Shown here: positions 4,286-24,285 of the stretch, piece by piece | Position numbering within the stretch: position 1 is the first letter of the stretch | Layout: every line of letters starts with the position of its first letter | Virus record (IMG/VR): IMGVR_UViG_3300032287_004484 | Coordinates: 124,001 to 188,000 of that record | Direction: 5' to 3' (one strand) | Origin: a virus | Length of the DNA: 64,000 bases | Translations under genes and position numbers: made by a program | Notes under the pieces: generated by a model | What the model was told of the DNA's origin: nothing | The model's input: only the letters and a program-made list of their open reading frames with translations | The model's database searches: none

Positions 4286-4498
4286 ATGTTTATAAAAGAA
4301 ATGACTATTGGTGAAGCGTTAGAGGTTCATCCCGAAGTTGGAATGGTTTTATCTGCTTACCACCTCGGTGGATGTTCGCATTGTTCTGTAAATGAGGTAG
4401 AAACTATCGAGCAAGTTTGTGAAGGATATGGAGTTGATGTTGATGAATTATTATGCTCTATGAATTCACTATTAAATGAAGATGAACAATTAGATTAA
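4286..4498 (+). CDS. DUF1858 (ScdA_N-like) protein
   Basis: A 70-residue protein that is essentially a single DUF1858 domain: 'MTIGEALEVHPEVGMVL', then 'HLGGCSHC', then 'ETIEQVCEGYGVDVDELL'. In bacteria this domain is found alone or at the N-terminus of proteins linked to Fe-S repair or redox (ScdA/Ric). The C-x-x-C pair around residues 31-34 could bind a metal or form a disulfide. It has a strong SD (AAAGGAG, 9 bases before ATG) and is a lone rightward gene among leftward ones; its 3' end overlaps the convergent HAD gene by 9 nt. Its role in phage infection is unknown. Confidence 0.8.
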   Translation: MFIKEMTIGEALEVHPEVGMVLSAYHLGGCSHCSVNEVETIEQVCEGYGVDVDELLCSMNSLLNEDEQLD

Positions 4499-5038
4499 AA
4501 TTTCTTTTAATTGTTTTATAGTATCTTTACTATTAAGGTGGAGAATTGATTTTCCACCTTTTTCTTTAAATTCATCACAATTAGATTTTAAATCATCAAT
4601 TAAAATAGAATTTGAGTTAGCATATAGTTTTTTATCACTTTTTTTATTAACAAAATTAATATGATCAGTATCTAAGTATTGTGAAACATTATTTTTTTCT
4701 AACCAATTCTTTTTTTGTTGACTAAAATCTTCATAATTTTCTTTTCTAGCCGTAGAAGATAAAATTCCTAATTTAAAATTATATTCCTTTTTTAATTCAA
4801 AAATATTTTCAATTAATGAATTTTCTTCTAATACATCTAAAGTTTCAAATAATTTTTCTTTTTTAATTAAATCCCAAATTTTTTGTTTTTGATCTTCAGT
4901 TAAATTATGTTTTTTGATAATTTCTTTTTTCATTTTTTCAAAATCAGCAAGTACACCATCCATATCTAAATAAATGATGTACTGATCTAATTTTTTACTT
5001 TCTAAAATAGTATCTAAATATTTTTTAAAGATTGACAT
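4490..5038 (-). CDS. HAD-family 5'-nucleotidase-like phosphatase with N-terminal capsid-targeting tag
   Basis: A 182-residue protein with two parts. Residues 1-14 (MSIFKKYLDTILES) fit the recurring tag of this genome: F4, Y7, L8, I11, E13, with predicted prohead-protease cleavage after I-L-E13. Residues 20-180 form a HAD phosphatase with motif I YLDMDGVLADFE (nucleophile D25, acid/base D27), motif II SSTAR and motif IV LIDDLKSN, resembling the NT5C/YorS group of 5'(3')-deoxyribonucleotidases. If the tag works as in T4 internal proteins, the enzyme is packed in the capsid and injected, where it could act on nucleotides. It lies 3 bases from the next tagged gene. HAD assignment is firm; packaging is inference. 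Confidence 0.75.
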   Translation of the reverse strand: MSIFKKYLDTILESKKLDQYIIYLDMDGVLADFEKMKKEIIKKHNLTEDQKQKIWDLIKKEKLFETLDVLEENSLIENIFELKKEYNFKLGILSSTARKENYEDFSQQKKNWLEKNNVSQYLDTDHINFVNKKSDKKLYANSNSILIDDLKSNCDEFKEKGGKSILHLNSKDTIKQLKEILI

Positions 5039-5041
5039 CTA

Positions 5042-5743
5042 TTAAGAAAACTGTGAATATATTTTTTTAAATTTTTGTATTTCTTTATCGTTTAAATTTA
5101 ATTCTTGTAATACTCCATCTTCATTATAACTATTTAAAATCTCTTCTATAGAAAAATTATAATTATTAACGTTATCATCAATTTCCATAATAAGATCTTC
5201 TGCATTATCCCATTTTTTTCCAATAACATTTACAATATATTTTATAGTTATTCTTGGATCTTTTAAAATAGAATTTTCTAACGATTTTTTAAAATCAGAT
5301 TCAATTTTTTTCTTATTCTCATAAAAAGAATATAAATAAGATAAAGATATACTATTAGATATATCACTTTTTTGTTCATCAGTTAATGCTTCTTTTTGTT
5401 TAGCTATTTTATCTATATTTTGTTCATTAATTTTACTATCAATTGTTTGACTATGCACCATTTGAATTTGTTTTAAATATTCTTTATAATCTTTATTGGA
5501 CAAAGTTTTTGTTTTATTTTTTTCTTTATCTTCGTCTTGTAATTTTTTTAAAGATTCTTCATCAGAAAGTGGTTCAGATTCTGGTTGATACGGTGTTGTT
5601 TCAATTCTATAATCTTTATCACGATATTGCCATCCTGGCTTAACGGTTGGTTTATTTGATCCGCCCCTAGGAGCTCTTATATCTCTAATTTTATCCCCAA
5701 CTGCTTCTTGAATTATCGTTAAATATTTATTAAATAGTGACAT
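5042..5743 (-). CDS. Tagged protein of unknown function, candidate internal head protein
   Basis: A 233-residue protein. The N-terminus MSLFNKYLTIIQEAVG carries the shared tag, with predicted cleavage at I11-Q-E13|A14, close to the [LI]-x-E|A rule of T4 gp21. The remainder is highly charged and helical. It has a basic, Pro-containing segment at about residues 17-45 (RDIRAPRGGSNKPTVKPGW), an acidic/lysine-rich stretch (about 58-80) and a C-terminal helical domain. No enzyme motif seen. The charge and helicity suit a DNA-associated internal protein. It is followed directly by the tagged HAD gene. Confidence 0.65.
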   Translation of the reverse strand: MSLFNKYLTIIQEAVGDKIRDIRAPRGGSNKPTVKPGWQYRDKDYRIETTPYQPESEPLSDEESLKKLQDEDKEKNKTKTLSNKDYKEYLKQIQMVHSQTIDSKINEQNIDKIAKQKEALTDEQKSDISNSISLSYLYSFYENKKKIESDFKKSLENSILKDPRITIKYIVNVIGKKWDNAEDLIMEIDDNVNNYNFSIEEILNSYNEDGVLQELNLNDKEIQKFKKIYSQFS

Positions 5744-5804
5744 GCTTTTATCCTAATGATTTAATATAATATTTTTACAATAACTCCGTAAAAAATTCTT
5801 TTTT

Positions 5805-6545
5805 TTATGGAGTCCAATCACCGCCCATTCTTTTTTTAATAGCTTTAACATAATTACTAGCTTCTAATAAAGAATCATAATTACCGCAATCAAACCAAGA
5901 ACAATCTATTTCTACAATATTTAGACGATCCTCATCAGCATATAAATTAGATAGTTCAGCAATTTCTGTTTCTCCTCTTGAAGATGGTTTTAGTGAATTA
6001 ACTTTTTCTAAAACATCACTTGGATAATAATAAAAACCAGGAACAGCTAAATTACCAATGTATTCTTTTGGTTTTTCAACTATTCTTCGAGTGTCTTTAT
6101 GTATTACTCCATATTGAGAAGGATCAAAGACTCTTAATCCAGTGATCATTGCTTTATTTTGAGAAATAGATTCTTCTAATTCTTTTTTTATTTGATGAGT
6201 AAAATTAAAAAATAAATTATCGCCTAAAATAAGGATAGCTCCATCTCCTTTTAACCATTTCTTTTCTTCTACTATTTTAAAAGCATCTGGTAGTCCAGTG
6301 GGTGTATCTTGAATGAAATAACGATCTATATTAGAACTAAATACATCTCTAAAATCAGAAAAAAAATCATTTTTACAAATAAGAGAAATTCTTTCTACTC
6401 CTAAAGCTTTTAAAACTTGAAATGGATACCACACCATTGGTTGATCATATACTGGTAATAATTGTTTTGATGTGTATTTTGTAAAATTAGAAAGACGAGT
6501 GCCATTTCCGCCGGCTAAAATAATTGCTGATAAATTGTGTTCCAT
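5805..6545 (-). CDS. rmlA: Glucose-1-phosphate thymidylyltransferase
   Basis: A 246-residue nucleotidyltransferase with the sugar-nucleotide pyrophosphorylase signature LAGGNGTRL (residues 10-18), the lysine-containing 'SKQLLPVYDQPM', the donor-site 'LGDNLFF', 'EKPKEYIGNLAVPGFYYY' and a terminal 'WFDCGNYDSLLEA'. It makes dTDP-glucose from dTTP and glucose-1-phosphate, the first step towards dTDP-rhamnose and other dTDP-deoxysugars. It is shorter than typical bacterial RmlA (about 290), lacking the C-terminal helical extension, like the short enzymes of some polysaccharide clusters. RmlB and RmlC lie nearby on the same strand but are separated by unrelated genes. Confidence 0.9.
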   Translation of the reverse strand: MEHNLSAIILAGGNGTRLSNFTKYTSKQLLPVYDQPMVWYPFQVLKALGVERISLICKNDFFSDFRDVFSSNIDRYFIQDTPTGLPDAFKIVEEKKWLKGDGAILILGDNLFFNFTHQIKKELEESISQNKAMITGLRVFDPSQYGVIHKDTRRIVEKPKEYIGNLAVPGFYYYPSDVLEKVNSLKPSSRGETEIAELSNLYADEDRLNIVEIDCSWFDCGNYDSLLEASNYVKAIKKRMGGDWTP

Positions 6546-6590
6546 ATTATTAATATATTATTAAAAAAAAAATAATGTTTATTTTTATAT

Positions 6591-6600
6591 CATAAATATA
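6591..6600 (+). promoter_or_regulatory. T4-late-like promoter element CATAAATATA
   Basis: The decamer lies 25 bases before the ATG of the tagged protein at 6626, followed by AT-rich spacer and AAGGAG. It resembles the T4 late promoter TATAAATA. The stretch around it (ATAAATATATTTTATAAAAAAT minus its ends) recurs almost unchanged upstream of the fibre gene at 48157. Confidence 0.5.
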
Positions 6601-6625
6601 TTTTATAAAAAATAAGGAGAAAAAA

Positions 6626-6835
6626 ATGTCTCAATTTAATAAATATCTAAATATAGTGCAAGAGGCATCTTATGCTGATACAGAAAAAGCTAATGATCCG
6701 AAGCGTTTTGAAGATACTAGGAAGGCTTCTAAAGATAAGCGAGGATTTGTTAGAAACCCTAATAGTGAAACTAATTCTCAAAAAATAGAAAGATTAAAAA
6801 AAGAAGAAGAAGAAAAGAAAAAACAAAGAAGATAA
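6626..6835 (+). CDS. Small tagged, highly charged protein; candidate internal head protein
   Basis: A 69-residue protein starting MSQFNKYLNIVQEASY: F4, Y7, L8, V11, E13, with predicted cleavage before A14. The remaining 56 residues are almost all charged or polar (many Lys, Arg, Glu) and end in a KE-rich basic tail, much like small T4 internal proteins that bind packaged DNA. SD AAGGAG lies 7 bases before the ATG, with a late-promoter-like element upstream. It is a lone rightward gene between rmlA and rmlB, ending 2 bases before the convergent rmlB stop. Confidence 0.7.
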   Translation: MSQFNKYLNIVQEASYADTEKANDPKRFEDTRKASKDKRGFVRNPNSETNSQKIERLKKEEEEKKKQRR

Positions 6836-6837
6836 TA

Positions 6838-7836
6838 TTACATCCATTCTTTATTTTTAAGAGTCCAATCTACTAAATGTTTCAACCCTTCTTCAAAAGA
6901 GAAGGGTGGAATCCAGCCTAAAGATCTTAAAAGAGCATCATTAATTCCATATTTTCGATCATATCCAGGACGAACTTTAGAATCGTCAATGGTATCTATT
7001 GGATAAACATTTATATTCATTATATTAGCAATTTTTTGAATTAATTCTAAATTATTAATTGAATCATTACCAGCAACATTAAATTTAAGAGGAGTTTCAA
7101 GAAAATTTTTTTTCTCGTAAAAAACTGGATCTACTTTATTATCTATAAATATAAGAGCATCACTTAAATTTCTACAATCTAAATAAACTCTTGATCCTAC
7201 TTTTCCACCAGAAGTATATACTGGTATAGTTTTACCTTGACTAAGGTATGAAATTGTTTTAGGTATCATTTTTTCTGGATTCTGCCTCTTACCGAACATG
7301 TTCATGCAATGAATTATAATACTTGGTATTCTATATGTTCTCCAATAAGAAAAGATTATATTATCTTGAGCTGCTTTACTAGCACTATAAGGATTACTAG
7401 GGTGATACTCCCACCCTTCTCGATGGAGATCATCTCCAAAGACTTCTCCATAAACCTCATCAGTAGATAGATGAATAAATTTAGATGGATTTATTTTTCT
7501 TACAAAATCTAAAACGCTTAGTATTAATTGAACATTATTATTAATAATATCATCTGGAGATTCGACTGATGTTGCTACACTAGAATCACTAGCAATAGAA
7601 AATACAGTATCTATGTGTCCTATTTTAGAAATTAAAGTTTCACTAAATGGAACTCTTAAATCATGTCTAAAATTAGTATAATTAGGATGATTATTAAAAA
7701 TTAATCTTTGAGAATCACCTTTTCTAGTTAGTGAATCAATTCCTATAACTTGGTATCCTCTACTGAGGAGATCTTCAACTAAGTGATGTCCAACAAAACC
7801 AGAACTACCAGTAACTAAAACTTTTTTTATATCCAT
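6838..7836 (-). CDS. rmlB: dTDP-glucose 4,6-dehydratase
   Basis: A 332-residue extended SDR with NAD-binding GSSGFVGHH (residues 10-18), the dehydratase catalytic triplet in 'STDEVYGE' (Thr-Asp-Glu) and the active-site Tyr-Lys in 'YSASKAA'. It converts dTDP-glucose to dTDP-4-keto-6-deoxyglucose. Some positions deviate from textbook RmlB (MNMFGKRQNPEKMIPK replaces the usual SNNYGPYQFPEKLIP), but the spacing is right. The product can go to RmlC for rhamnose or, by inference, to the DegT-type aminotransferase at 46000 for an amino sugar. Confidence 0.88.
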   Translation of the reverse strand: MDIKKVLVTGSSGFVGHHLVEDLLSRGYQVIGIDSLTRKGDSQRLIFNNHPNYTNFRHDLRVPFSETLISKIGHIDTVFSIASDSSVATSVESPDDIINNNVQLILSVLDFVRKINPSKFIHLSTDEVYGEVFGDDLHREGWEYHPSNPYSASKAAQDNIIFSYWRTYRIPSIIIHCMNMFGKRQNPEKMIPKTISYLSQGKTIPVYTSGGKVGSRVYLDCRNLSDALIFIDNKVDPVFYEKKNFLETPLKFNVAGNDSINNLELIQKIANIMNINVYPIDTIDDSKVRPGYDRKYGINDALLRSLGWIPPFSFEEGLKHLVDWTLKNKEWM

Positions 7837-7912
7837 ATTTAATTATACTCAAAAAAGATAATTAATGTTTATAATTAAACATAAAAATAAAAAGTAAATA
7901 AAATTACTATGT

Positions 7913-8419
7913 ATGAGTGAAAAAAGTTTTTTTGAAGAAATTATTATTGAGGAACATGGAGTGAGACCAGTTTATTTAATAGTGTTTTTCATATTTTGTG
8001 AGTCCATTATTGCTCTTACAAGTTATGTTACTTCACCAGTTGCAAGATTACATGTCGAACCTAATATAAGTTCAGAATCAATCGCTTTATCAAAAGGAAC
8101 TGTAGTTAATAAAATTGGTGAAAAGGATATGTTTATTAAAGTTACTACTGATGGAAAAGAAGGATATGTTAATAAACTATTTTTATCAGATAATCCGCCT
8201 TCTGGTAAAGTTTCTTTTTCATCAGATATTGATCAGTCTACATCTATTAAAGCTCGCGCTAGAGCATCTAATTTTACTCAAACAGCCGCTGCGAGAGGTT
8301 TTAGTGAATCTCAAATTCTAAGAACAAGAGGCGGTGCTAACGATTATGATATGGATTCTATTAGATGGTTAGAATCTATTAAAATAGATGAAGAAGAAAT
8401 TAAAAAATTTAATAACTAA
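7913..8419 (+). CDS. Membrane-anchored SH3-like protein
   Basis: A 168-residue protein with a cytoplasmic N-terminus (MSEKSFFEEIIIEEHGVRP), one transmembrane helix at about residues 20-40, then a bacterial SH3-like domain (about 43-90: 'ARLHVEPNISSESIALSKGT' to 'EGYVNKLFLS') and a low-complexity tail with 'KARARASNFTQTAAARGF'. The tail resembles that of some bacterial envelope SH3 proteins. It probably sits in the inner membrane with the SH3 domain outside, so it may act on the cell wall or in superinfection control; this is inference. No clear SD. The 3' end overlaps the convergent acyltransferase gene by 4 nt. Confidence 0.65.
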   Translation: MSEKSFFEEIIIEEHGVRPVYLIVFFIFCESIIALTSYVTSPVARLHVEPNISSESIALSKGTVVNKIGEKDMFIKVTTDGKEGYVNKLFLSDNPPSGKVSFSSDIDQSTSIKARARASNFTQTAAARGFSESQILRTRGGANDYDMDSIRWLESIKIDEEEIKKFNN

Positions 8420-9144
8420 ATTTGATCTTTAATTGATTCCATTTTAAAAGTTAAAAAAATATAAAAATCTTCAAAATTAAGAAAACGATCTGGATAAATA
8501 ATTTCTGAACAATTATAAGTTATTATTCTATTTAGATTAGCCATTCCTTTTTTATAAAAAACTATCACTGGAAAATTATTTTGAAAAACAAATTTTAGTA
8601 ATCCTTTTTTAAAGGGATTAGGTTTATCACTAAAAGATCTTTCTCCTTCTGGCATAAATCCTATATTACAGTATTTTAAATAATCTTCAGCCTCATCAAT
8701 AGATTCTTTAATTCTTACACCATCTTTTAAAAGAATCCCCGCTTTTTGAAGAAAAAAATAAAGAAGTCCACTACGGTACATCGCTTTATCAAAAAGAAAA
8801 GCACAATTACCTTCTAATGGATCAAAAGGATATTCAAATTCATTAACGTGATTAAATATTACTATATGTCCATTTTTAGGAATCATATTTTTTGGATATC
8901 TTCTATATATAAAAATTAAAAGAAAAATTCTACAAACTATATTCCAAATTTTTAAAAAGAAAAATAAAAACACTATATTTATCTTTTTAAAATCTTTTCT
9001 TTTTAAGAATGGTAATATCGATATAAAATATAAAAAACCTATTATTGTTCCACTTAAATAAACTACTAATGAATAATAAATTCTTTTTATTATTGAATCT
9101 TTTCTTGAATTTAAATTAGGTGAATCACCTTTATAAACGATCAT
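8416..9144 (-). CDS. PlsC-like lysophospholipid/lipid acyltransferase
   Basis: A 242-residue protein with two hydrophobic segments (about residues 25-48 and 55-80) followed by an LPLAT domain. Block I is 'IVIFNHVNEFEYPFD', with the NH pair but a shifted acid compared with canonical NHx4D; block III is 'FMPEGERSF', the FPEGTRS-type substrate motif; 'NFPVIVFYKKG' is block IV-like. It would transfer an acyl group to a lysophospholipid or glycolipid at the inner membrane. Next to LPS-type sugar genes, a role in modifying host surface lipid is plausible. A CATAAATATA element ends only 6 bases before the ATG, so the start or the element may be wrong, or the message is leaderless. Confidence 0.7.
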   Translation of the reverse strand: MIVYKGDSPNLNSRKDSIIKRIYYSLVVYLSGTIIGFLYFISILPFLKRKDFKKINIVFLFFFLKIWNIVCRIFLLIFIYRRYPKNMIPKNGHIVIFNHVNEFEYPFDPLEGNCAFLFDKAMYRSGLLYFFLQKAGILLKDGVRIKESIDEAEDYLKYCNIGFMPEGERSFSDKPNPFKKGLLKFVFQNNFPVIVFYKKGMANLNRIITYNCSEIIYPDRFLNFEDFYIFLTFKMESIKDQI

Positions 9145-9167
9145 ATAAAATATATTTATGTTTTTTT

Positions 9168-9722
9168 TTAATGATTATTCAAATATTCTTGTAATGATGG
9201 TGCATTTCTATCTTTATTAGAAATCGTTATTTCTCTTATATTAACTGGTGGCATTCTTTTAATAAAGACTTCACTCTGTAAAAGAGGAATACCATTTATT
9301 ATTCTTTCATTTTCGGGAACTCTTGGAGATGATACAGAATATAAAACTCTATTATCATTTTCAAGAGTAAAAAATCCATGAGCACAGCCTTCTGGTACAT
9401 ATACTGATTGTAGAGTCGAATCTGTTAAAAAAACGACTTCTGTTTCTAAATAAGATGGTGATCCTTTTCTAAGATCAATAAAAAAATCATAAATTGATCC
9501 TTTCATTACTGTCACCAATTTTGCTTGTGCAAAATTACCTTCTTGAAAGTGTAAACCTCTAAGAACATGTTTTTTAGATTGAGAAATATTTTGCTGAATA
9601 AAGTGTTTAAAGTATTTATCTTTAAAATCATCTTGTAGATATTCAGAGAAAAAGCCTCTATCATCTTCAAAACTTTTATGGTCTAATAAAAAAGAATCTT
9701 GAATTTTTAAGTTAGTTATCAT
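9168..9722 (-). CDS. rmlC: dTDP-4-dehydrorhamnose 3,5-epimerase
   Basis: A 184-residue cupin of RmlC type: 'FEDDRGFFSEYL' (residues 19-30), 'QQNISQSKKHVLRGLHFQ' with the catalytic His in RGLHFQ, 'VTVMKGSIYDFFIDLRKGSP', 'VYVPEGCAHGFFTL' and 'SNKDRNAPSL' at the C-terminus. It epimerises dTDP-4-keto-6-deoxyglucose at C3 and C5 on the way to dTDP-L-rhamnose. No RmlD reductase is visible in the window, so the host or an unseen gene must finish the pathway. AATAAATACA lies 20 bases upstream of the ATG. Confidence 0.9.
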   Translation of the reverse strand: MITNLKIQDSFLLDHKSFEDDRGFFSEYLQDDFKDKYFKHFIQQNISQSKKHVLRGLHFQEGNFAQAKLVTVMKGSIYDFFIDLRKGSPSYLETEVVFLTDSTLQSVYVPEGCAHGFFTLENDNRVLYSVSSPRVPENERIINGIPLLQSEVFIKRMPPVNIREITISNKDRNAPSLQEYLNNH

Positions 9723-9742
9723 AGTTTATTATATTTTATAAA

Positions 9743-9752
9743 TGTATTTATT
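9743..9752 (-). promoter_or_regulatory. Late-promoter-like element AATAAATACA upstream of rmlC
   Basis: Reads AATAAATACA on the minus strand and lies 20 bases before the rmlC ATG, the same spacing as other elements of this type in the window. It differs from CATAAATATA at two positions. Confidence 0.35.
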
Positions 9753-9788
9753 TAAAAATAAATAATAAAAAATATAAAATATAATTAT

Positions 9789-10424
9789 ATGGACTTAACT
9801 TTTGGAATAGTTACTAAATATGATGATAATAATCGTTTATTAGAAATAATAAATTCTATAAAAAATCTTCATATAAAAAACTATGAAATTATTTTTATTG
9901 GCGATGGAATAACAAGTGAAAATATTATTGGAGAAAATATTAAACATATAAAATTTGATGAAACTATAAAACAAGGTTGGATCACTAAAAAAAAGAATAT
10001 TATAGCAAAATCAGCAAAATATGAAATAATTGTTATGATGCATGATTATCATGTTTTTGATAAAGATTGGTATGAAAAATTTTTAATATTTGGTGATAAT
10101 TGGGATATATGTTGTACATCACAAATTATGATAGATGGTAGAAGGAATTTTGTAGATTGGGCCTTATGGGATAAACCTGGTTTTGGAAAAGGTCAAACAT
10201 GGGATTATAACGACTGGAATGAAACAAAATATATGTATATAAGCGGAGCTTTCTTTTTAGTTAAAAAATATGTTTTATTAAATGAACCTTTTAATGAATC
10301 TTTAACTTGGAATCAATCAGAAGATGTTGAGTGGTCTTTAAGAGTTAGAGAAAAATATAAAATCGTATGCAATGGATCTAGTGTTGTAAGACATAATAAG
10401 TCACATAGACATAATTATATGTAA
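9789..10424 (+). CDS. GT-A (family 2-like) glycosyltransferase
   Basis: A 211-residue protein starting with a GT2-type fold: 'LTFGIVTKYDDNNRLLEIINSI' (residues 3-24), 'YEIIFIGDG' and 'IIVMMHDYHVFDKDWYEKF', where the DxD-equivalent is H-D-Y. 'YISGAFFLVKK' and 'NQSEDVEWSLRVRE' resemble the acceptor/ED region of GT2 enzymes. It is compact and soluble. It starts a rightward run of five overlapping or adjacent genes (9789-13727). Confidence 0.7.
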   Translation: MDLTFGIVTKYDDNNRLLEIINSIKNLHIKNYEIIFIGDGITSENIIGENIKHIKFDETIKQGWITKKKNIIAKSAKYEIIVMMHDYHVFDKDWYEKFLIFGDNWDICCTSQIMIDGRRNFVDWALWDKPGFGKGQTWDYNDWNETKYMYISGAFFLVKKYVLLNEPFNESLTWNQSEDVEWSLRVREKYKIVCNGSSVVRHNKSHRHNYM

Positions 10425-10425
10425 T

Positions 10426-11799
10426 ATGAAAAATAAACTTGTAATTTTTGATTTAGATGGAGTATTAATTGATTCTAGAGATTTACATTATTACTCATTA
10501 AATAATGCTTTAAGTAAAATTGATAATAAATATATAATATCTAAAGATGAACATCTATCTATATTTGACGGATTAAGTACAACTAAAAAATTAAATTTAT
10601 TAGCTGAAATTAAAAAACTACCTAAAGAGTATCATCAGATCATTTGGGAAGATAAACAAAAAGCAACAATAGAATTATTAAAAAAAATTAATAAAAACAA
10701 AATCGCAATTTCTATAATTAATGAATTAAAAAAAATAGGATGGAAAGTAGCGGTTGCTTCTAATAGTATTAGAGAAACTTTAAGAGTATCTTTACATAGC
10801 ATTGGAATATTACATTTAATAGATTATATGGTTAGTAATGAAGATGTAATTAATCATAAACCTCATCCAGAAATGTATTGGAAGTGTATGTTATCTTTAA
10901 ATGCTTTACCATCTAATACTTTAATAGTTGAAGATTCACATATAGGAAGGCAAGCTGCATTATCTTCTGGAGCTAATCTTTATGCTATTAAAGATTCTTA
11001 TGAATTAAATTATAAAACATTTTTTAATGAACTTGAAAAGTTTGATAATAAAAAACAAAAAATAAATATACCTTGGAGTAATAAAAAAATGAACGTATTA
11101 ATCCCAATGGCTGGGGCTGGATCTAGATTTTCTCAAGCAGGATATACTTTTCCAAAACCATTAATTGAAGTTAATGGAAAACCAATGATTCAAAAAATAG
11201 TTGAAAATCTTAATATAGACGCTCATTATATTTTTATAGTACAAAAAGAACATTATGACAAATATAATTTAAAGCAATTATTAAATTTAATATCTCAAGA
11301 CTGTGATATAATTATTGTAGATTCTATTACTGAAGGAGCAGCTTGCACTGCTTTATTAGCAAAAGAAATAATAAACGATGATCAACCTCTTTTAATTGCT
11401 AATTCTGATCAAATTATGGATTGGAATTCTAATGAATGTTTATATGCTTTTTCTAATGATAATATTGATGGAGGAATTTTAGTTTTTGAATCAACACACC
11501 CTAAATGGTCTTTTGTTAAATTAGATTCTAATAATTTTGTAATAGAAGTTGCAGAAAAAAATCCTATTTCAAACATAGCTACTACAGGAGTTTATTATTG
11601 GTCAAAAGGTTCTCATTTTGTTAAATACGCAGAACAAATGATTACTAATAATATTAGAGTTAATAATGAATTTTATATATGTCCTATTTTTAATGAAGCT
11701 ATTAAAGATAATAAAAAAATTAAAATAAAATATGTTGATAAAATGTGGGGAATAGGTACCCCAGAAGATTTAAAATATTATTTGGAAAATAATAAATGA
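10426..11799 (+). CDS. Fusion of HAD phosphatase and sugar-phosphate nucleotidyltransferase
   Basis: A 457-residue two-domain protein. Residues 1-205 are a HAD hydrolase of the beta-phosphoglucomutase/phosphatase type (VIFDLDGVLIDS, then VASNS, then 'KPHPEMYWKC' and 'VEDSHIGRQAA'). Residues 223-457 are a nucleotidyltransferase ('VLIPMAGAGSRF', 'FPKPLIEVNGKPM', 'LIANSDQIMDW', 'GTPEDLKYYL'). Such fusions make NDP-activated sugars or polyols from phosphorylated precursors, one domain removing a phosphate and the other activating. The exact sugar cannot be read from sequence. The gene starts 1 base after the glycosyltransferase stop and its stop overlaps the methyltransferase start by 4 nt. Confidence 0.8.
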   Translation: MKNKLVIFDLDGVLIDSRDLHYYSLNNALSKIDNKYIISKDEHLSIFDGLSTTKKLNLLAEIKKLPKEYHQIIWEDKQKATIELLKKINKNKIAISIINELKKIGWKVAVASNSIRETLRVSLHSIGILHLIDYMVSNEDVINHKPHPEMYWKCMLSLNALPSNTLIVEDSHIGRQAALSSGANLYAIKDSYELNYKTFFNELEKFDNKKQKINIPWSNKKMNVLIPMAGAGSRFSQAGYTFPKPLIEVNGKPMIQKIVENLNIDAHYIFIVQKEHYDKYNLKQLLNLISQDCDIIIVDSITEGAACTALLAKEIINDDQPLLIANSDQIMDWNSNECLYAFSNDNIDGGILVFESTHPKWSFVKLDSNNFVIEVAEKNPISNIATTGVYYWSKGSHFVKYAEQMITNNIRVNNEFYICPIFNEAIKDNKKIKIKYVDKMWGIGTPEDLKYYLENNK

Positions 11800-15426: not shown

Positions 15427-15446
15427 TTTTTAGTTCCTTAATATAT

Positions 15447-16835: not shown

Positions 16836-18141
16836 ATCAAGAATAAAAGTCACTATTCATAATAAAACATATAATTTTACTTTTCCTGACTTATCAGAAG
16901 TGAATGGAAGAATTATTTTTGTAAATAATGTTAAAAAAGAATTAAGAGAGTATTTTTTTAAAGGATATGAAGATAATAGATCAGGAAAATCAAAACCTAA
17001 TTCTTTTACAAGTAGAGTTTCTGAGGCTGATTTATTTATGAAAAGAAAATTATCCTCTATGTTAGAAGAGATTTATGATGCTGGTTATAAAAAATACGAT
17101 TTAGATAAAGAAAAAGAATATAAAGTTGAAGATTTAGATATAGAGGATCCAAAATTAGAATCTAACATTAAAATATTAGCAAGTCAAAGTTTTTCTGATG
17201 GGATGAACGATGCTAAAAATTCATCTTATAAAAAAACTAAAATTAATATACCTAATGAATTATTTTTTATTAAAGATAAATTAAATGATATTTTAATTAA
17301 AGCTTATAATGATGGATATGATGAAGGTATCAAATTTATTAATCAAAAATATAAAATTGATATTCCAAAAATTAATAATTCATATATTCAAGAAAAAATT
17401 AAAATAGAAATTGATTCTGCTTTTGCTACTGGTAAAAAAGATTTTGACGATAATAAACCAGAAAATTTAAATTACGAACCTAATTTAAATTTTATTAAGG
17501 ATTCTGTTTTAAAAAATCAGGTTTTAGATACTGTTAAAAAAGCATACGCTGACGGATATCAGGATTATCTTAATAAGGCAGAAAAAAAACTATTAGAAAA
17601 ACAAAAAGAAAATGAAATTAGAACTAAAGAAGAAAAAGAATTATTTTATCTTATAAAAAAATATGGAAAAATTTTACAAAATAAATTTGTTAGCGCTCTT
17701 TATCAATATGTAATTAAAAGTAATGAACTTAAAGATTTAGGTGATTATAATTTTATTAATATTAAAAGTGAAGACCAAAATTTATTAGACCAAGTTAAAA
17801 AAATAGTTACATCTGCTTTTACTAAAGGTAAAGAAGATGCTATGAATGGAAGAAGAAAGAGGTTTCCAATTTTTAGTATGCCTTATAAAATAAAAGATGA
17901 TCTTATTCAAAATGAAGTTGTTAATTTAGTTAATAAAGCATACGATGATGGATATAATCTTGTAATGGATGAAATACATAAAAACTTAACTTCTGAAATT
18001 AATAAAAATCCAGAAATTAAAAGATTAGAAGAATTATTAGAAAAATTTAAAAAATATAAACCGATTAAAAAAATATCTAATCTTCCAGATCGTTATGTTA
18101 ATCAAATGATTTATTCGGTGGAAGTTCCTAGTGAATCTTGA
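16819..18141 (+). CDS. Helical repeat protein with AYxDGY-type units
   Basis: A 440-residue, Lys/Glu-rich protein made of four diverged units of roughly 75-100 residues. Each unit has a first helix with F/A-x-x-G-x-x-D (FKGYEDNRSG, FSDGMNDAKN, FATGKKDFDDN, FTKGKEDAMNG), a proline-containing linker and a second helix ending AY-x-DGY or YDAGY (near residues 90, 168, 252 and 376). No transmembrane segment. The repeats suggest a filamentous or scaffolding role, or a metal-binding one through the D-x-x-D-G-Y acidic residues. SD AAGGA directly precedes the ATG. No family recognised. Confidence 0.65.
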   Translation: MEELFESRIKVTIHNKTYNFTFPDLSEVNGRIIFVNNVKKELREYFFKGYEDNRSGKSKPNSFTSRVSEADLFMKRKLSSMLEEIYDAGYKKYDLDKEKEYKVEDLDIEDPKLESNIKILASQSFSDGMNDAKNSSYKKTKINIPNELFFIKDKLNDILIKAYNDGYDEGIKFINQKYKIDIPKINNSYIQEKIKIEIDSAFATGKKDFDDNKPENLNYEPNLNFIKDSVLKNQVLDTVKKAYADGYQDYLNKAEKKLLEKQKENEIRTKEEKELFYLIKKYGKILQNKFVSALYQYVIKSNELKDLGDYNFINIKSEDQNLLDQVKKIVTSAFTKGKEDAMNGRRKRFPIFSMPYKIKDDLIQNEVVNLVNKAYDDGYNLVMDEIHKNLTSEINKNPEIKRLEELLEKFKKYKPIKKISNLPDRYVNQMIYSVEVPSES

Positions 18142-18547
18142 CGAAATAGTCAAAACAGATCTTTCATCTATTACTTATAGATCAGTTCGTGAAAGAAGAA
18201 AAGACTTTAGAAGGAAAACTCCTAATACAGTTTTTTTATTTAAAGATAAAAATATTTTACACTACTCTTCTCCATCAACTAAAAACAGAAATAAAACTTA
18301 TAAAATATTAGTTAAAAAAGATAAGAATAATGATATATTTTTTCATTGTACTTGTAGTGCTTTTAATATGCAAGGATTTGCTTATCGAGCTCACTCTTTG
18401 GGTTGTGGAATAAAAAAAGAAACTAGAAGAGATTATAGATGGAGAAAATATCACGGTAAAAACACTGTTCTATGTAAACATCTATGGATTCTATTTCATA
18501 AAGATATAAAAAAATTAAAAAATAATCTTGAAAGAATCAAAAAATAA
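18131..18547 (+). CDS. SWIM-type zinc-finger protein
   Basis: About 138 residues from a GTG start that overlaps the previous stop by 11 nt. The C-terminal half has the SWIM metal pattern C-x-C...C-x-H: C73-T-C75 in 'FFHCTCSAF' and C115-K-H117 in 'TVLCKHLW', with a long basic insertion between (KKETRRDYRWRKYHGK). The N-terminal part is very basic (SVRERRKDFRRKT). SWIM domains bind DNA or protein partners. A DNA-binding role in packaging or recombination fits, but this is inference. A TTG start in the same frame further in cannot be excluded. Confidence 0.65.
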   Translation: MNLDEIVKTDLSSITYRSVRERRKDFRRKTPNTVFLFKDKNILHYSSPSTKNRNKTYKILVKKDKNNDIFFHCTCSAFNMQGFAYRAHSLGCGIKKETRRDYRWRKYHGKNTVLCKHLWILFHKDIKKLKNNLERIKK

Positions 18548-18575
18548 TATATTATCTCCACCCATGGAAAACAAA

Positions 18576-18884
18576 ATGAGTAAATTTAGAGATTATTTAG
18601 AAAAAATTAAAGTTGATTATAATTTAAATGATGTTGTAATTTCAGAGGCAAAAAAGAAAAAAAAGAAAAAAATGAAGCCAACTGAAAAATTAGAACCTGG
18701 CGATGTACTATATAAAGGTACAGGTACTTCTGCTGATAAGTTAGGTGTTGGTAAGGCTGCATATAGAAAATATTTTTTAAATATAAAAAATGGATTATTA
18801 GCTTCTGGAAAAAATGCTGGTAGTGCTATTGCTATTGCTTATTATTCTACTAATAAACATTTTAAAGACTTAGAAAAAAAATAA
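18576..18884 (+). CDS. Small tagged basic protein, candidate internal head protein
   Basis: About 102 residues from the ATG at 18576, chosen because GGAAAA sits about 7 bases before it and the N-terminus then reads MSKFRDYLEKIKVD, aligning with the other tagged proteins (F4, Y7, L8, I11). The E13 position is Val here, and the best protease site is I-S-E24|A25, followed by a run of lysines. The C-terminal 70 residues form a small domain ('GTGTSADKLGVGKAAYRKYF', 'SAIAIAYY') of unknown function. It lies between the SWIM protein and the 458-residue hypothetical. Confidence 0.6.
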   Translation: MSKFRDYLEKIKVDYNLNDVVISEAKKKKKKKMKPTEKLEPGDVLYKGTGTSADKLGVGKAAYRKYFLNIKNGLLASGKNAGSAIAIAYYSTNKHFKDLEKK

Positions 18885-18893
18885 TTTTATTGA

Positions 18894-20270
18894 ATGAAAG
18901 ATAAAAAAAACTTACAATCTAATTATCATTTCATTCAAAAACTATCTTTTTATTTTAGTCAAAAAACATCCTTTATTTCTTCTACTAATGGTCTAAATTG
19001 TAATGCTACTGATCCAAAAGAAATAATAAAACTTATAATTAATAAAGATAAGCAAATAAATTATGATTTGTTATTTAAAGATATTTTTTTAAATAATAAA
19101 AAAATAGATAAATACATTGATTATTACAAATTATCTAAAATTAGTTATCATGATAATTTAGAAGTAATACAAATTTTATTAAGAATATTATCTCAAAAAA
19201 GAATTAAAAAATTACTTATTAACGATTTCAAATTAATTAGAAGTCTTAACAGATATATTGTTGAATTTAAAAATATTTTTACAAAAATAAAAAAGATTGA
19301 TTTAATTACAAAAAATTATCCTAAGTTTTTAAAAGATAGCGGTAGTCAAGTTTTTAAAATAGAATACGATAATGGAGATATATTTTATTTTAAAAACATC
19401 AAGAAAAAAATTAAAAATGAAATATTAATTGATTCAACAATTAAAAATTCTGAGTTAAGACCGTGTCATTTAAATTTATCAGATACCTACAATAAACAGC
19501 AATTATATAGATTATTAAGATTTAAACTAAGAAAATTATCAAATCAAAAAATCTCAGAAATTTTATTAATCATTTTAGAATCAATAATTAAATTAGATAA
19601 AATTTCTGATAAAATCTATATACCTGAATTAAACGATAAATTAAAAGAAATATCAATTGAGGATCAGCGTTGTATTTTTAAAGATTTTGGAGAAATTATA
19701 AGTGCTTTTAATTATTGTCAAAATGATAAGGTTTCTTTTACGACGTATAATGAAAAAGTAGTTGATTTTATAATTCACAAAGAAAATAAAAAAGAATTAT
19801 ATTCCTGTAAATACACGAAAAATAATAGTTCTAAATCATCTTTAAGTTATATTTTAGATTACATGAAAACTTTACAATTAGATGATGAAGAAAAAAAATT
19901 ATACGATTTATTATCTATTGTTGTTGAATCTAAAGGTTCTCTTAATTCTTTTAATAATTTATCAAATTTTTTAAACATTAAAGAGTCTAGTGATATAGAA
20001 TTCTTTAATCTTCCAATAAAAGATCAAAGAAATGGAAGATTAATTTATATCTATTCGAGGAATTGTAAAAAGATTTTAAATAATTCATTTTATAAAAATC
20101 TTTTAAACAGAATATTAAACAAATTGGATATTAACCAAATAACTATTAATTATGACAGAAATAATTTTATATCTTTTGATAATAATCATTTTAGCGAGAG
20201 TTCATTCATCTTTGAATCATCAGTAAGTGTAAATAAATATAATTCTAAATTATGTTTTAAAATGGAATAA
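18894..20270 (+). CDS. Large hypothetical protein
   Basis: 458 residues, strongly Lys/Ile/Asn-rich and mostly helical, with a beta-containing part near residues 155-170 ('FKIEYDNGDIFYFKNIKKK'). No membrane segment, signal peptide or catalytic motif was found. The gene starts 9 bases after the tagged protein and ends 3 bases before the VRR-NUC gene, so it belongs to the same block. Function unknown. Confidence 0.6.
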   Translation: MKDKKNLQSNYHFIQKLSFYFSQKTSFISSTNGLNCNATDPKEIIKLIINKDKQINYDLLFKDIFLNNKKIDKYIDYYKLSKISYHDNLEVIQILLRILSQKRIKKLLINDFKLIRSLNRYIVEFKNIFTKIKKIDLITKNYPKFLKDSGSQVFKIEYDNGDIFYFKNIKKKIKNEILIDSTIKNSELRPCHLNLSDTYNKQQLYRLLRFKLRKLSNQKISEILLIILESIIKLDKISDKIYIPELNDKLKEISIEDQRCIFKDFGEIISAFNYCQNDKVSFTTYNEKVVDFIIHKENKKELYSCKYTKNNSSKSSLSYILDYMKTLQLDDEEKKLYDLLSIVVESKGSLNSFNNLSNFLNIKESSDIEFFNLPIKDQRNGRLIYIYSRNCKKILNNSFYKNLLNRILNKLDINQITINYDRNNFISFDNNHFSESSFIFESSVSVNKYNSKLCFKME

Positions 20271-20273
20271 AAA

Positions 20274-20720
20274 ATGGAAGATTTATACGAAGAGTTAGAA
20301 GAACTAAATTCTATCAAAAAGAAAAAAAAGAAACCGCGTGAAAAAAGGGTTCTTGAAGAAGATGAACAATTTAATGTTATCAGATATTTAAGAGATAAAC
20401 ATCCTGACGTTCTTTTTAGAGTTTCTATTGATGGAGTAAGATTACCTATTGGCATTTTAATGAAAATTAAAAAAAGCGGTGGTCTTCAAAAAGGATTACC
20501 AGATATTGAGATCTTTCATCCAAATAATGGTTATCATGGTCTTTTTATTGAAATGAAAAAGACTGGAAGAAAACTTAAAAAGAAAAATGGTGATTGGGTT
20601 GATGAGAAAATAGAACTACAGGCTTTAACAATTCAAAAATTAAATTCACTTGGATATTTAGCAGCTTTTGCTGATGGAGAAAAAGACGCAATTAAAATAA
20701 TTGATGATTATTTTAAGTAA
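20274..20720 (+). CDS. VRR-NUC domain nuclease
   Basis: A 148-residue PD-(D/E)xK-type nuclease of the VRR-NUC family. It has 'EEDEQFNVIRYL' (first acidic helix, residues 28-39), 'GGLQKGLPDIEIFHP' (catalytic G-L-P-D, D77) and 'GLFIEMKKTGRK' (E93-x-K95), followed by 'LTIQKLNSLGYLAAFADG'. The N-terminus is lysine-rich. Phage VRR-NUC proteins are often stand-alone structure-specific endonucleases for branched DNA, such as recombination or packaging intermediates. It closes the rightward block and overlaps the convergent neighbour by 8 nt. Confidence 0.85.
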   Translation: MEDLYEELEELNSIKKKKKKPREKRVLEEDEQFNVIRYLRDKHPDVLFRVSIDGVRLPIGILMKIKKSGGLQKGLPDIEIFHPNNGYHGLFIEMKKTGRKLKKKNGDWVDEKIELQALTIQKLNSLGYLAAFADGEKDAIKIIDDYFK

Positions 20721-22041
20721 TTTCTTTTTTTAACATTTTAATAAAATTATCTTGCCTTATATTTTTAATAAAATTTCCAATTCTATTTAAAGAATAATCG
20801 ATTTTAGGTAATTTATATTCTATATCGTTTGTTTTTGTTTTTAAAATTGATGATGTTGCATAAATGGATCTTGAAATTAAATTAGTTAATTTCTCTGAAT
20901 CTTGCTGATTTAATTCAAATATTTTTTGATCGTCTTTAAAATTAGTAAATATTTTTAAAAAAACTGGATAATCTTTGAAATGTTCTTTAAAATCTTTAAA
21001 AGTAGTATTTTCATTAAAAGTGTCAGAACTCTTTAGTAAATCAATAAAATCTCGTTTATAATCTTTTGTATAAAATCTATTTTCCATTTTATTTAATGCC
21101 AAATATAAAGGTTTTATTATATAATTAATTTCTTTATCTTTTATTTTAACATTGTTTTTTATTTTTAAAATAATATATTTTATTTCTTTTTCAGAAAAAC
21201 CTTCAAAGTCATTATATAATATAATTTCTTTTATTTTTTCTTTTATTTTTTTTTCAAAATTATTATCATCTTTAAAGATTTCATTTATTTCAAGAATAGA
21301 AAAATCTACATTATTTATAATAAAATTATCTATTTTAAAATCAAAATTATAGTGATTACCTAATAAAGCATATAGTTCTCTTAAAATTTCTTCTGGAGAA
21401 TATGTTTTAGCATCTTTAGAATTATTTTTACTATCTTTATCACTTTTTAATGGCATATATAGTAATTTGCTTTCTTTATCTTTTGCTTGAAATTTATAAA
21501 TATCTTTATTATCTAAAATTGTATGTAAATTAAAATCATGTAAAAAAGTTAATAAACCGTTACTTACATTATCTTTATTAATAACTAAAGAAAATAATTC
21601 ATGGTTAGAATTTTCATTATAAATAGAAAATGATATTTTTCTTAAAATTTGATAATTAATTAAATTAATAAAATCATTAGAATTTATTTTTTCTTTATTA
21701 TTTTCGTATATTTTTTTAAATTTTTCAACTAAAATATATTTTAGATCTTTTAAAGTAATTTCATTTAAAAAATATTTATCAAAATCTGAAACGTCAAAGA
21801 TTAGTGATAATTTATTATTATCATTAAAATAATTAATAATGGGATTATTTATTTTTATGTAAAAATCCGTATGTTTTTCTTTATATATTTCTTTTAATAT
21901 TTCATTAATATAATCAACAGATTTTTTAAATATTTCTATAACCTGTATAGGTGTTTTATCACTTATATTAAAATTATATTTAACGTTTTGATATGAACCT
22001 ATTCCTTCAATAATTATTGAAAGATTTTTTATAAATTTCAT
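20713..22041 (-). CDS. Large hypothetical protein
   Basis: 442 residues, very rich in Asn, Lys, Ile and Asp and largely helical after an N-terminal beta segment ('NLSIIIEGIGSYQNVKYNFNI'). No catalytic, membrane or signal features. It is convergent with the VRR-NUC gene. Its 5' flank has only a short AT-rich spacer without a clear SD. Confidence 0.55.
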   Translation of the reverse strand: MKFIKNLSIIIEGIGSYQNVKYNFNISDKTPIQVIEIFKKSVDYINEILKEIYKEKHTDFYIKINNPIINYFNDNNKLSLIFDVSDFDKYFLNEITLKDLKYILVEKFKKIYENNKEKINSNDFINLINYQILRKISFSIYNENSNHELFSLVINKDNVSNGLLTFLHDFNLHTILDNKDIYKFQAKDKESKLLYMPLKSDKDSKNNSKDAKTYSPEEILRELYALLGNHYNFDFKIDNFIINNVDFSILEINEIFKDDNNFEKKIKEKIKEIILYNDFEGFSEKEIKYIILKIKNNVKIKDKEINYIIKPLYLALNKMENRFYTKDYKRDFIDLLKSSDTFNENTTFKDFKEHFKDYPVFLKIFTNFKDDQKIFELNQQDSEKLTNLISRSIYATSSILKTKTNDIEYKLPKIDYSLNRIGNFIKNIRQDNFIKMLKKEIT

Positions 22042-22079
22042 ATTTTATTTTTATGATTTAAAATAATTAATTTTAAAAA

Positions 22080-22376
22080 TTAAATAGCATATTCTTCTAA
22101 TTGGTATTTTTTTATAAGATCAATAAATCTAGTGTTTCTTAATTGTAAATAAGATTCTTCTTTTATTTTTTTAAATTTTTCATTATCTAAAGGAATTTTA
22201 ATATCACTGTTAATATTTTGTCCATATTCACTAATAGAAACATAATCTGATTTGATTGGTGATCCACAAAATAATTTATCTGTTTTTGTATCTAATATTT
22301 TAATCGTATTAATTAATTGACGATTACCTTTTAAAGAAATCAACAAAATATACCTACTAATTGCATTTATTTTCAT
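22080..22376 (-). CDS. Hypothetical protein
   Basis: A 98-residue soluble protein ('ISRYILLISLKGNRQLINTI' at the N-terminus, a helical C-terminus). No family recognised. A perfect 16-bp palindrome starts 2 bases upstream of the ATG. Confidence 0.5.
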   Translation of the reverse strand: MKINAISRYILLISLKGNRQLINTIKILDTKTDKLFCGSPIKSDYVSISEYGQNINSDIKIPLDNEKFKKIKEESYLQLRNTRFIDLIKKYQLEEYAI

Positions 22377-22378
22377 AT

Positions 22379-22394
22379 ACTAATTATAATTAGT
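22379..22394. repeat. 16-bp perfect palindrome upstream of 22376
   Basis: ACTAATTATAATTAGT reads the same on both strands. It lies immediately before the start codon at 22376 on the minus strand, where it could be an operator or a small hairpin in the leader. In AT-rich sequence such palindromes also arise by chance. Confidence 0.3.
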
Positions 22395-22427
22395 AGTTTT
22401 TAAAATGTTTAAACCTATAAAATATTT

Positions 22428-22787
22428 TTAAACAAAAAATATCCAATTATGTTTTGGTCTATTATGTGTATAATAAAAATCTTTTTCGTGAAAATAAGCT
22501 TCTTTTTCAAATGGATTTTTATAATATGCCTCTAAATAAGGATTTTTAAAATTAAAACTTATTAATTCTTTAATTATGTTAATTAGCATAAAATAAACAT
22601 ATAAAAAATAAAATCCTATTATCAATAATTCTTTTTGCTGTTCAATATGAATTAATTCATGATTAACTATTATTTCAATTTCTGGATCTTTTTCTAAAGT
22701 TTTTAAAATAAAAATAAAAGGATATAAAGTTATACCGCTAGCAAAACCAAATGTAATGTACTTAACTAAATTTGTAAATATTATCAT
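22428..22787 (-). CDS. Membrane protein with HExxH zinc-peptidase motif
   Basis: A 119-residue protein with hydrophobic segments at about residues 10-30 and 54-74 around H43-E-L-I-H47 (VNHELIHIEQQKELL), with E94/E96 (NPFEKEAYFHE) as a possible third ligand. As I recall them, small bacterial membrane proteins, common in Bacteroidetes, share the order 'HExIHxxQQxELLxxGFYxxY...PFExEAY'. It could be an intramembrane or membrane-attached protease acting on host envelope or phage proteins. No clear SD. A TATAAATATA element at 22801-22810 is only 13 bases away. Confidence 0.6.
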   Translation of the reverse strand: MIIFTNLVKYITFGFASGITLYPFIFILKTLEKDPEIEIIVNHELIHIEQQKELLIIGFYFLYVYFMLINIIKELISFNFKNPYLEAYYKNPFEKEAYFHEKDFYYTHNRPKHNWIFFV

Positions 22788-22809
22788 ATATAAATATTTT
22801 TATATTTAT

Positions 22810-22836
22810 ACTATTATTTTTAATAAAAATAATAGT
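22810..22836. terminator. Perfect 12-bp AT-rich hairpin, possible terminator
   Basis: ACTATTATTTTT at 22810-22821 is followed by a 3-base loop and its exact complement at 22825-22836. It lies 39 bases downstream of the stop at 22875 (minus strand) and just before the next gene. Symmetric and AT-only apart from one C-G pair, so either strand could use it; there is no separate T-tract. Confidence 0.4.
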
Positions 22837-22874
22837 ATTTAATATCTTTTTTTAAAGCTTTTGATAAATTATCT

Positions 22875-23468
22875 CTAATTAATTAATTTTATAGTTATAA
22901 TGCAATCTTTATCGACACTAATTATAAAACCTTTATACTGCGTTTTTTTTATTTTATCAAATCTTTTTTGATTTTTATCGTTAAAATCGTCATATTTTAT
23001 TTTTGAAGAAAAATTTGATTCTACTAATTCTATAATATTTTTAAAAATTATTTTAAAATTTTTATTAATCATTGCTTGTCTATAAGATAAAGTTTTTTCA
23101 TATCCTTCTTTATCTTTAAAAAAATTAGGCGATTTTTTTACTATTATATTTGCGCCAAAAGTATTAAAAAACTCAACAAATTTTACTTGCTCTTCATCTC
23201 CTTTTATATACATTTCACCATCAGTTAAAAGATATAACGATTTTAAATCTATTCTTTTATATGAATTATCTTTTATTTTAATTTTTGTTCTTGCTGAAAC
23301 AAGCGATTTTTTTATGCCTATTTTTTCTCCTAAATCCTCAAGTTTTCCTACTACTTCTGCTCCTATTTCTTGAACTGCTGCTTTAGCAAGTCTATATCCT
23401 TTCCAAGCTTCATCATAATTTTGTTTTTCTTCTTGAATTATTTCTAAATAATCATAAAAATTTTTCAT
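22875..23468 (-). CDS. Tagged protein of unknown function, candidate internal head protein
   Basis: A 197-residue protein starting MKNFYDYLEIIQEEKQ (F4, Y7, L8, I11, E13). The first 42 nt are nearly identical (39 of 42) to the start of the gene at 24037, while the rest is unrelated. Residues 18-60 form a helical, Ala/Gly-rich stretch ('AWKGYRLAKAAVQEIGAEVV') and the C-terminus is alpha/beta ('GFIISVDKDCIITIKLIN'). No known family. AAGAGG and a CATAAATATA element precede it with late-promoter spacing, fitting synthesis during head assembly. Confidence 0.65.
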   Translation of the reverse strand: MKNFYDYLEIIQEEKQNYDEAWKGYRLAKAAVQEIGAEVVGKLEDLGEKIGIKKSLVSARTKIKIKDNSYKRIDLKSLYLLTDGEMYIKGDEEQVKFVEFFNTFGANIIVKKSPNFFKDKEGYEKTLSYRQAMINKNFKIIFKNIIELVESNFSSKIKYDDFNDKNQKRFDKIKKTQYKGFIISVDKDCIITIKLIN

Positions 23469-23489
23469 TTTTTTTATTTACCTCTTAAA

Positions 23490-23499
23490 TATATTTATG
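23490..23499 (-). promoter_or_regulatory. T4-late-like promoter element CATAAATATA
   Basis: Minus-strand CATAAATATA, 21 bases before the ATG at 23468, with AAGAGG between. Identical to the element upstream of the tagged gene at 6626. Confidence 0.5.
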
Positions 23500-23527
23500 T
23501 TATATTTTTTTTTCAATTTAGCAAATT

Positions 23528-23929
23528 TTAAAAAAATATATTATCCCATTCTTTAGGTAATAAGGATATATCTATTTTTCTAACTTTAATTGGTAAATTA
23601 TTTAATTTAGCTTTTTTTAATCTATGATGTCCATCTATAATTATTTTTTCTCCAGTAGAATCTTTAGTTATAATTATTATTGGATAATCTAAATCAGAAG
23701 CTTCTACTCTTAGTAAAGTATCTTCATCTGTTTTTTCACTATGAATAGAATTATATTTTTCAGACGGTTCTTCTATTATAGGAATGTTATTTTCTTTTAG
23801 TTTTTTTTGTATATCAGACATTGTAACTTGATTAATTTCATCTGACCAGTATTCATCTATAAGATTAGGATTTTTTATTAAAGATGTAGCATCATTAATA
23901 ATTTTTAAATATTCATATAGTTTAATCAC
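23528..23929 (-). CDS. ParB-like nuclease-fold protein with tag-like N-terminus
   Basis: About 133 residues from a GTG start. The N-terminus MIKLYEYLKIINDATS aligns with the tag (L4, Y7, L8, I11) but has Asp at position 13, so cleavage is uncertain. The C-terminal half is a ParB/Srx-like core: 'LLRVEASDLDYPIIIITKD', 'KIIIDGHHRLKKAK' (the DGHHR box of ParB-type NTPases and nucleases) and 'LPIKVRKI'. In phages such domains occur in DNA-binding or nuclease proteins. If packaged, it could act on host or phage DNA after injection. No good SD at the GTG. Confidence 0.65.
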   Translation of the reverse strand: MIKLYEYLKIINDATSLIKNPNLIDEYWSDEINQVTMSDIQKKLKENNIPIIEEPSEKYNSIHSEKTDEDTLLRVEASDLDYPIIIITKDSTGEKIIIDGHHRLKKAKLNNLPIKVRKIDISLLPKEWDNIFF

Positions 23930-24036
23930 ACTATATATTTAGTTGATAAAATAATTAATTGTGATTTATTTTAAAAATTTTTTGTGTATATTTATGTTTA
24001 TTATTATTAAAAATAAAAATAGAGGTACAAATTAAT

Positions 24037-24285
24037 ATGAAAAATTTTCATGATTATCTAGAAATAATTCAAGAAAAAACTGCGAATATTCCAAGCAGAG
24101 GATCAGAGGATCATCTTAAGATGATCGCACAAAAAATTTATAATATGGTTAAATCTGATGGAATGGCTACATGGAATTCAACTTCAAGATCAGAAGTATA
24201 TGATAATAAAAAATACTATGGAGTACAAAAGTTATCGGAAGATCAGATAATTGAAGTTTTAGGTATGGTTGATAAAATGTTTTAA
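24037..24285 (+). CDS. Small tagged protein, candidate internal head protein
   Basis: An 82-residue protein starting MKNFHDYLEIIQEKTA (F4, Y7, L8, I11, E13), with predicted cleavage after I-Q-E13. The remaining 69 residues form a small alpha/beta domain ('DHLKMIAQKIYNMVKSDGMATW', 'EDQIIEVLGMVDKMF') of unknown function. AGAGGTAC lies upstream of the ATG. Its tag DNA is almost the same as that of the gene ending at 22875. It is convergent with the dCMP deaminase gene. Confidence 0.65.
   Translation: MKNFHDYLEIIQEKTANIPSRGSEDHLKMIAQKIYNMVKSDGMATWNSTSRSEVYDNKKYYGVQKLSEDQIIEVLGMVDKMF

Follow-up and report, generated by a model that had tools for sequence, protein, structure and literature searches.

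A T4-like capsid targeting tag is the probable common N-terminus of otherwise unrelated proteins in a large phage

Introduction

Capsid targeting sequences (CTSs) are a known kind of signal and are well worked out in phage T4, whose propeptides are 10-20 residues long. In the T4 internal protein IPIII, residues 4 and 7 control targeting and residues 8 and 10 control processing; Asp at position 10, the cleavage position, blocks processing while targeting is kept (review of Black's work, PMC9026906). Of the three internal proteins of T4, each blocks a different restriction enzyme of the GmrSD (type IV) kind (PMC12373910).

N-terminal packaging signals are also described outside T4. The first 30 residues of phage P1 DarB direct a reporter to the capsid (PMC9024508); P1 belongs to a different phage group, and the likeness to the tag reported here is taken from the description of that signal. 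In SPN3US/phiKZ, inner head proteins carry N-terminal propeptides that a prohead protease removes by cutting after Glu (PMC5694885). Those propeptides are mostly much longer and follow an A/S-x-E rule, whereas the tag described below has 13 residues and ends mostly in I-x-E. The long S/A-x-E propeptide of phiKZ/SPN3US type was thus rejected as a description of the tag.

We analysed a window of 64,000 bases (bases 124001-188000 of the 290,274-base virus record G000; G+C ~26%). A sequence-only reading had proposed that seven proteins encoded in the window share an N-terminal capsid-targeting propeptide.

Results

The tag is enriched at gene starts

All seven ORFs were present; the protein starting at 18576 begins at an internal ATG of the TTG ORF 18528-18884. 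ORFs were called across the whole G000 record, and a non-overlapping set of 420 genes was used for counts. The pattern M..[FL]..YL..[IV] stood at the start of nine of these genes. Shuffled N-termini gave a mean of 0.098 and a maximum of 2 (500 sets), and the expectation from the internal rate was 0.04. At the DNA level, the tag pattern matched five times in the window (0.04 expected). A position-specific profile scored by leave-one-out showed a clear gap, with nine members at 0 expected false positives: six of the seven proteins, and three more elsewhere in G000 (Table 1). The common tag therefore stands for six proteins, whereas the seventh (23528-23929, GTG start) is a weak member whose leave-one-out score is reached by 3.65 expected false positives. 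Chance or composition as the source of the tag is ruled out by the shuffled N-termini and the leave-one-out profile.

When the ten tags were compared, F/L4, Y7, L/I8 and I/V11 were each found in 10/10 and E13 in 7/10. Residue 14, which is not part of the defining pattern, was A, S or G in six of the ten (p = 0.0013), and conservation ended there. Similarity among the bodies was not significant, which bears out their description as unrelated. The mature bodies are not all basic, in contrast to those of T4 internal proteins, which speaks against a full likeness to T4. AlphaFold models made without alignments for two tagged proteins (mean pLDDT 42 and 48) were unusable apart from a helix at about residues 3-13, predicted in both at this low confidence.

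The tag DNA of the genes at 22875-23468 and 24037-24285 is identical at 39 of 42 bases, and this had been taken as a sign that the tag moves between genes as a module. The count is real, but the identity lies within what codon bias allows (P = 0.095) and does not show movement. Copying of a module at the DNA level was dropped as an explanation for this reason. The genome is AT-rich and the tag lies at the start codon, so the similarity might instead be a translation-start feature of the DNA. This is scarcely credible, because the closest pair is similar from the start codon only up to codon 14, identical residues are encoded with about the variation expected from codon use, and conservation goes by residue position.

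Table 1. Tagged proteins and the presumed processing protease. Coordinates are those of the window unless marked G000; an arrow marks the predicted cut.
Feature	Coordinates	Strand	Remarks
Tag MSIFKKYLDTILE↓S of HAD-family deoxyribonucleotidase-like protein 4490-5038	5000..5038	-	Clean profile member
Predicted mature HAD protein, 169 aa	4490..4999	-	phrog_2643, E = 4.5e-27
Tag MSLFNKYLTIIQE↓A of 5042-5743	5705..5743	-	Clean profile member
Predicted mature body, 220 aa	5042..5704	-	No family match
Tag MSQFNKYLNIVQE↓A of 6626-6835	6626..6664	+	Clean profile member
Predicted mature body, 56 aa	6665..6835	+	pI 9.8
Tag MSKFRDYLEKIKV of 18576-18884	18576..18614	+	Clean profile member
Predicted mature body, Lys-rich	18648..18884	+	pI 10.1
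Tag MKNFYDYLEIIQE↓E of 22875-23468	23430..23468	-	Clean profile member
Predicted mature body, 184 aa	22875..23429	-	pI 9.4; no family match
Weak tag MIKLYEYLKIIND↓A of 23528-23929	23891..23929	-	Asp at predicted cleavage position
Tag MKNFHDYLEIIQE↓K of 24037-24285	24037..24075	+	Clean profile member
Predicted mature body, 69 aa	24076..24285	+	
Tag MKDFKHYLSLINE↓S	G000 21177-21494		Clean profile member beyond the range read earlier
Tag MKTFKDYLNKIENFNE↓S	G000 38581-38883		Clean profile member beyond the range read earlier
Tag MSLFKKYISIIQE↓G	G000 266193-267131		Clean profile member beyond the range read earlier
Likely member MKGKSFQDYLSVIKE	G000 55226-55777		Tag with two-residue insertion (SFQDYLSVIKE)
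gp21-type prohead protease (Peptidase_S77), presumed processing enzyme	62573..63226	+	PF03420, E = 2.1e-20, above cut-off

The tagged bodies differ in kind

The call of a HAD phosphatase at 4490-5038 was backed by the match to phrog_2643 (5'-3' deoxyribonucleotidase), with a Pfam score slightly below the NT5C cut-off. As cargo, this protein resembles 5'-3' deoxyribonucleotidases, judging from its sequence. The ParB-like call for 23528-23929 found no support in Pfam or NCBIfam, the sole match being phrog_17560 (function unknown). The likely member with the insertion has matches among phage proteins that bear the annotation high-potential iron-sulfur protein. A search of viral contigs for relatives of the bodies at 5042, 22875 and 266193 found none.

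The tag resembles the T4 CTS and a gp21-type protease is present

The protease had been recognised earlier at 62573, and its Pfam match agrees with that call (Table 1). The gp23 capsid protein (PF07068) is encoded at G000 191,870-193,162. With both the gp21 and gp23 families present, the head genes of this phage are, by family match, T4-like. The alignment places LISE↓S of the G000 capsid protein in the region where that of T4 is cut (FLTE↓A). [LI]xE sites also occur there in other gp21 phages, with some alignment columns gapped. Just upstream of the head genes, an ORF at window 59392-60213 starts MPEAPEIK and, by eye, resembles a formamidopyrimidine-DNA glycosylase.

Tag positions 4/7 and 8/P1 correspond to the residues of T4 IPIII that have been mapped as controlling targeting and processing, respectively. 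Like T4 IPII and IPIII (MKTYQEFIAE↓A), the tag is N-terminal, with aromatic residues at 4 and 7, an aliphatic residue at 8 and Glu at the cut site, which for the tag is a predicted one; as in T4, the bodies are unrelated and a gp21 protease is encoded in the same phage. Unlike IPII and IPIII, the tag has an extra I11 and a predicted cut at 13, not 10. Tagged proteins are also more numerous here than in T4, and the cargo takes in enzyme-like domains and acidic proteins. The earlier comparison with the start and cut of T4 internal proteins thus held at positions 4, 7 and 8, but not for the place of the cut. A cut site of T4 length, at residue 10, was not seen in the ten G000 tags (E13), whereas a near relative (G002, below) has both lengths. 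By its residues, the tag looks like the T4 signal made three residues longer.

E13↓[ASG] fits the gp21 protease rule as far as the residues go. The site [ILV]xE↓[AGS] stands at the tag end in 5 of 11 tagged proteins, and one further protein, 18576-18884, has its nearest [ILV]xE↓A, VISE24↓A, at residue 24 (codon of E24 at 18645-18647). In the remaining five the site reads E↓E, E↓K, D↓A or FNE↓S, which speaks against the cleavage reading. If the protein at 23528 (Asp13) is a true member, it is predicted to be packed yet uncut. More broadly, the tag might direct proteins to the head yet mostly stay on, the likeness of E13↓A to a cleavage site being due to ancestry or helix capping. Several tags with E↓E, E↓K or a D in this place would suit such a course, as would the E↓L and E↓M of G002, and in T4 an Asp at the cleavage position allows targeting without processing (PMC9026906). 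We consider it unlikely, however. Position 14 is enriched for A/S/G, tagged genes more often have [ILV]xE↓[AGS] at residues 10-16 (Fisher p = 3e-5, a partly circular test), and in the protein at 18576 a site of the usual kind, VISE↓A, follows eleven residues later. Cleavage at the tag end is the reading that we prefer.

A rule from T4 finds similar starts in other gp21 phages

A rule was written from T4 data (aromatic residues at positions 4 and 7, an aliphatic one at 8, Glu at 10-15, and a permitted residue two before Glu) and applied to ten gp21-positive phages and to four without a PF03420 match. The gp21-positive phages gave 26 matches against 1.94 expected, or 17 against 1.6 with this phage left out. 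The four phages without a gp21 match showed no enrichment (1 against 0.62 expected), so among these genomes the pattern was not equally common in the absence of a gp21 match. The rule was not blind, because the G000 tag and the T4 literature had already been seen when it was written. phiKZ had neither a PF03420 match nor a rule match.

T4 matched at ipII, ipIII and 61.1. Rule matches elsewhere include PSSM2_114/115 of P-SSM2 and the Lw1 protein described below. Two additional genomes, Aeh1 and S-SM1, gave 3 matches (0.21 expected) and 1 match (0.12 expected), respectively. The sole S-SM1 match is the cytidylyltransferase SSM1_190 (T4-GC190), which starts MKKFSAFLNE↓A, and the T4-GC190 gene cluster is named among proteins detected in purified S-SM1 virions (PMC3037559). 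As in the tagged set here, the cyanophage T4-GC190 protein is an enzyme with a CTS-like start (P-SSM2, S-SM1); it differs in that its tag is of T4 length and that in many homologues the match begins only past about residue 110.

A short amphipathic helix could fill many docking roles, and the tag might localise proteins elsewhere, for instance to a membrane, a replication compartment or a host complex. We regard this as improbable: the conserved positions coincide with those of a capsid signal that was mapped by mutation, T4 internal proteins and a virion-detected enzyme are among the rule matches, and enrichment tracks gp21 among the genomes tested. A destination in the head accounts better for these findings.

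Enrichment was uneven across gp21 phages. CP220 and G001, both with gp21, had no rule match, and KVP40 and HTVC008M had one each; the tag is therefore not universal among gp21 phages. The strict 13-residue DNA pattern found 27 stretches in viral contigs, nearly all chance or unrelated, and thus the extended tag looks lineage-specific. A scan with the shorter M-K-x-F-x-x-Y-L-E-A found 33 stretches, which were mixed and often not at gene starts.

Two single proteins were recorded during this comparison. T4 gene 61.1 (L204, 67-231) encodes a 54-aa protein of unknown function whose start, MKTFKEFIKE, fits the rule. In phage Lw1 (L175, 3157-3990), a protein with a GGAGSGKG nucleotide-binding motif starts MKSFKDFVSLDE↓A and adjoins an untagged HAD homologue; these features make it a candidate for an enzyme packaged by a phage of E. 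coli.

In a near relative the tag stands on other bodies

A search with the capsid protein found G002, a 51,755-base contig with a capsid fragment that shows 86% identity over 262 residues (88% over 235). With the tag pattern fixed beforehand on G000, G002 gave four strict matches against none in the control, and 11 looser matches against one. Ten of its matches are gene starts of tagged proteins. Several tags have T4-like spacing (e.g. MKLFQHYIIE↓A and MKNFINYLEE↓A). The tagged bodies of G002 had no match among those of G000.

One tagged G002 protein has a cREC domain (PF20274, E = 3.8e-16); its G000 homologue, at 56777, is untagged, begins at the domain and is 35% identical. HAD homologues in Lw1, CfP1, Cronuts, Mm5 and XacN1 likewise begin at the domain, and the homologue in phage immuto has a different N-terminal extension; most annotated phage homologues of the HAD protein start without the tag. 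None of three iron-sulfur-type homologues had the tag. Since these three kinds of body occur both with and without it, the tag is evidently gained or lost on bodies, and cargo turnover is fast. On the sequences compared, this turnover is better evidence for modularity than the 39/42 identity discussed above.

Descent from one ancestral gene, with only the start kept, is very hard to uphold as an explanation of the tag. The tagged genes do have a start codon and tag in common, and the DNA of two neighbouring tags is almost the same. However, the bodies are without similarity and include a HAD domain and an iron-sulfur-type domain, with a cREC domain in the relative, and homologous bodies occur without the tag. 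A tag attached to separate bodies remains our reading.

Beside the tagged genes of G002 (L234, 2097-10684), several large ORFs start with similar but shifted motifs (MKLYDYFSLLSES, MKFTKKLSIIIES and MKFCSKLNLILEA). By their resemblance, these are perhaps further targeting signals with other spacing.

Leaders and promoters

The early-type motif TTTTTAGGTTT was found in 0/8 tagged-gene leaders against 39/167 leaders, a weak difference, and a search of the tagged-gene leaders for a late-promoter signature gave no clear late motif. At about 25 places in G000 (e.g. 6351, 110240 and 283496), TTTTTAGGTTTA(A/T)(A/T)CACTTA is followed by a TATAAT-like box about 17 bases on; this is probably an early promoter of this phage. 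At G000 23,248-33,393, TTTTTAGGTTTTT precedes every gene in a series of short genes, many of which start ATGAAAAGAAAA; this makes a repeated leader module.

Discussion

The common N-terminus is very probably a capsid-targeting propeptide of the T4 CTS kind. The gp21 and gp23 genes, the residue match to T4, the enrichment of the rule, the virion-detected enzyme of S-SM1 and the different bodies of the relative all support the capsid-targeting reading proposed earlier. Core binding, cleavage, packaging and ejection would most likely proceed in this phage as in T4. Residues 1-13 would form a short helix with a hydrophobic face of F4, Y7, L8 and I11. This face may bind a gp22-like core during prohead assembly and draw whatever follows inside. 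Cleavage after E13 by the gp21-like protease would come next, and the freed protein would be packed and ejected with the DNA. Cargo would change as a body gains or loses the tag, giving each phage its own cargo mix.

New here are the lengthened form of the signal, the number of proteins that carry it and the finding that cargo is almost completely exchanged from one close relative to another. Because T4 internal proteins block GmrSD enzymes, an anti-defence payload is a reasonable guess in this phage, not a result. We suggest, tentatively and as a possibility that we think somewhat doubtful, that the tag is an open delivery code: phages with gp21 may put it on almost any domain, nucleotide-acting enzymes included, to inject ready-made proteins against nucleotide-signal or restriction defences of the host. 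Examples would be the HAD nucleotidase-like protein here and the cyclic-phosphate-processing receiver-domain protein in the relative. In that case, N-terminal sequence alone would list a phage's injected proteins.

If the tag works as in T4, this large and distant member of the T4-like phages marks about ten proteins with an extended form of the signal, and the set so marked in a near relative is almost entirely different. The injected cargo of gp21 phages could then be predicted from sequence, and the tagged genes would at once supply candidates for injected anti-defence proteins and for injected enzymes of unknown function.
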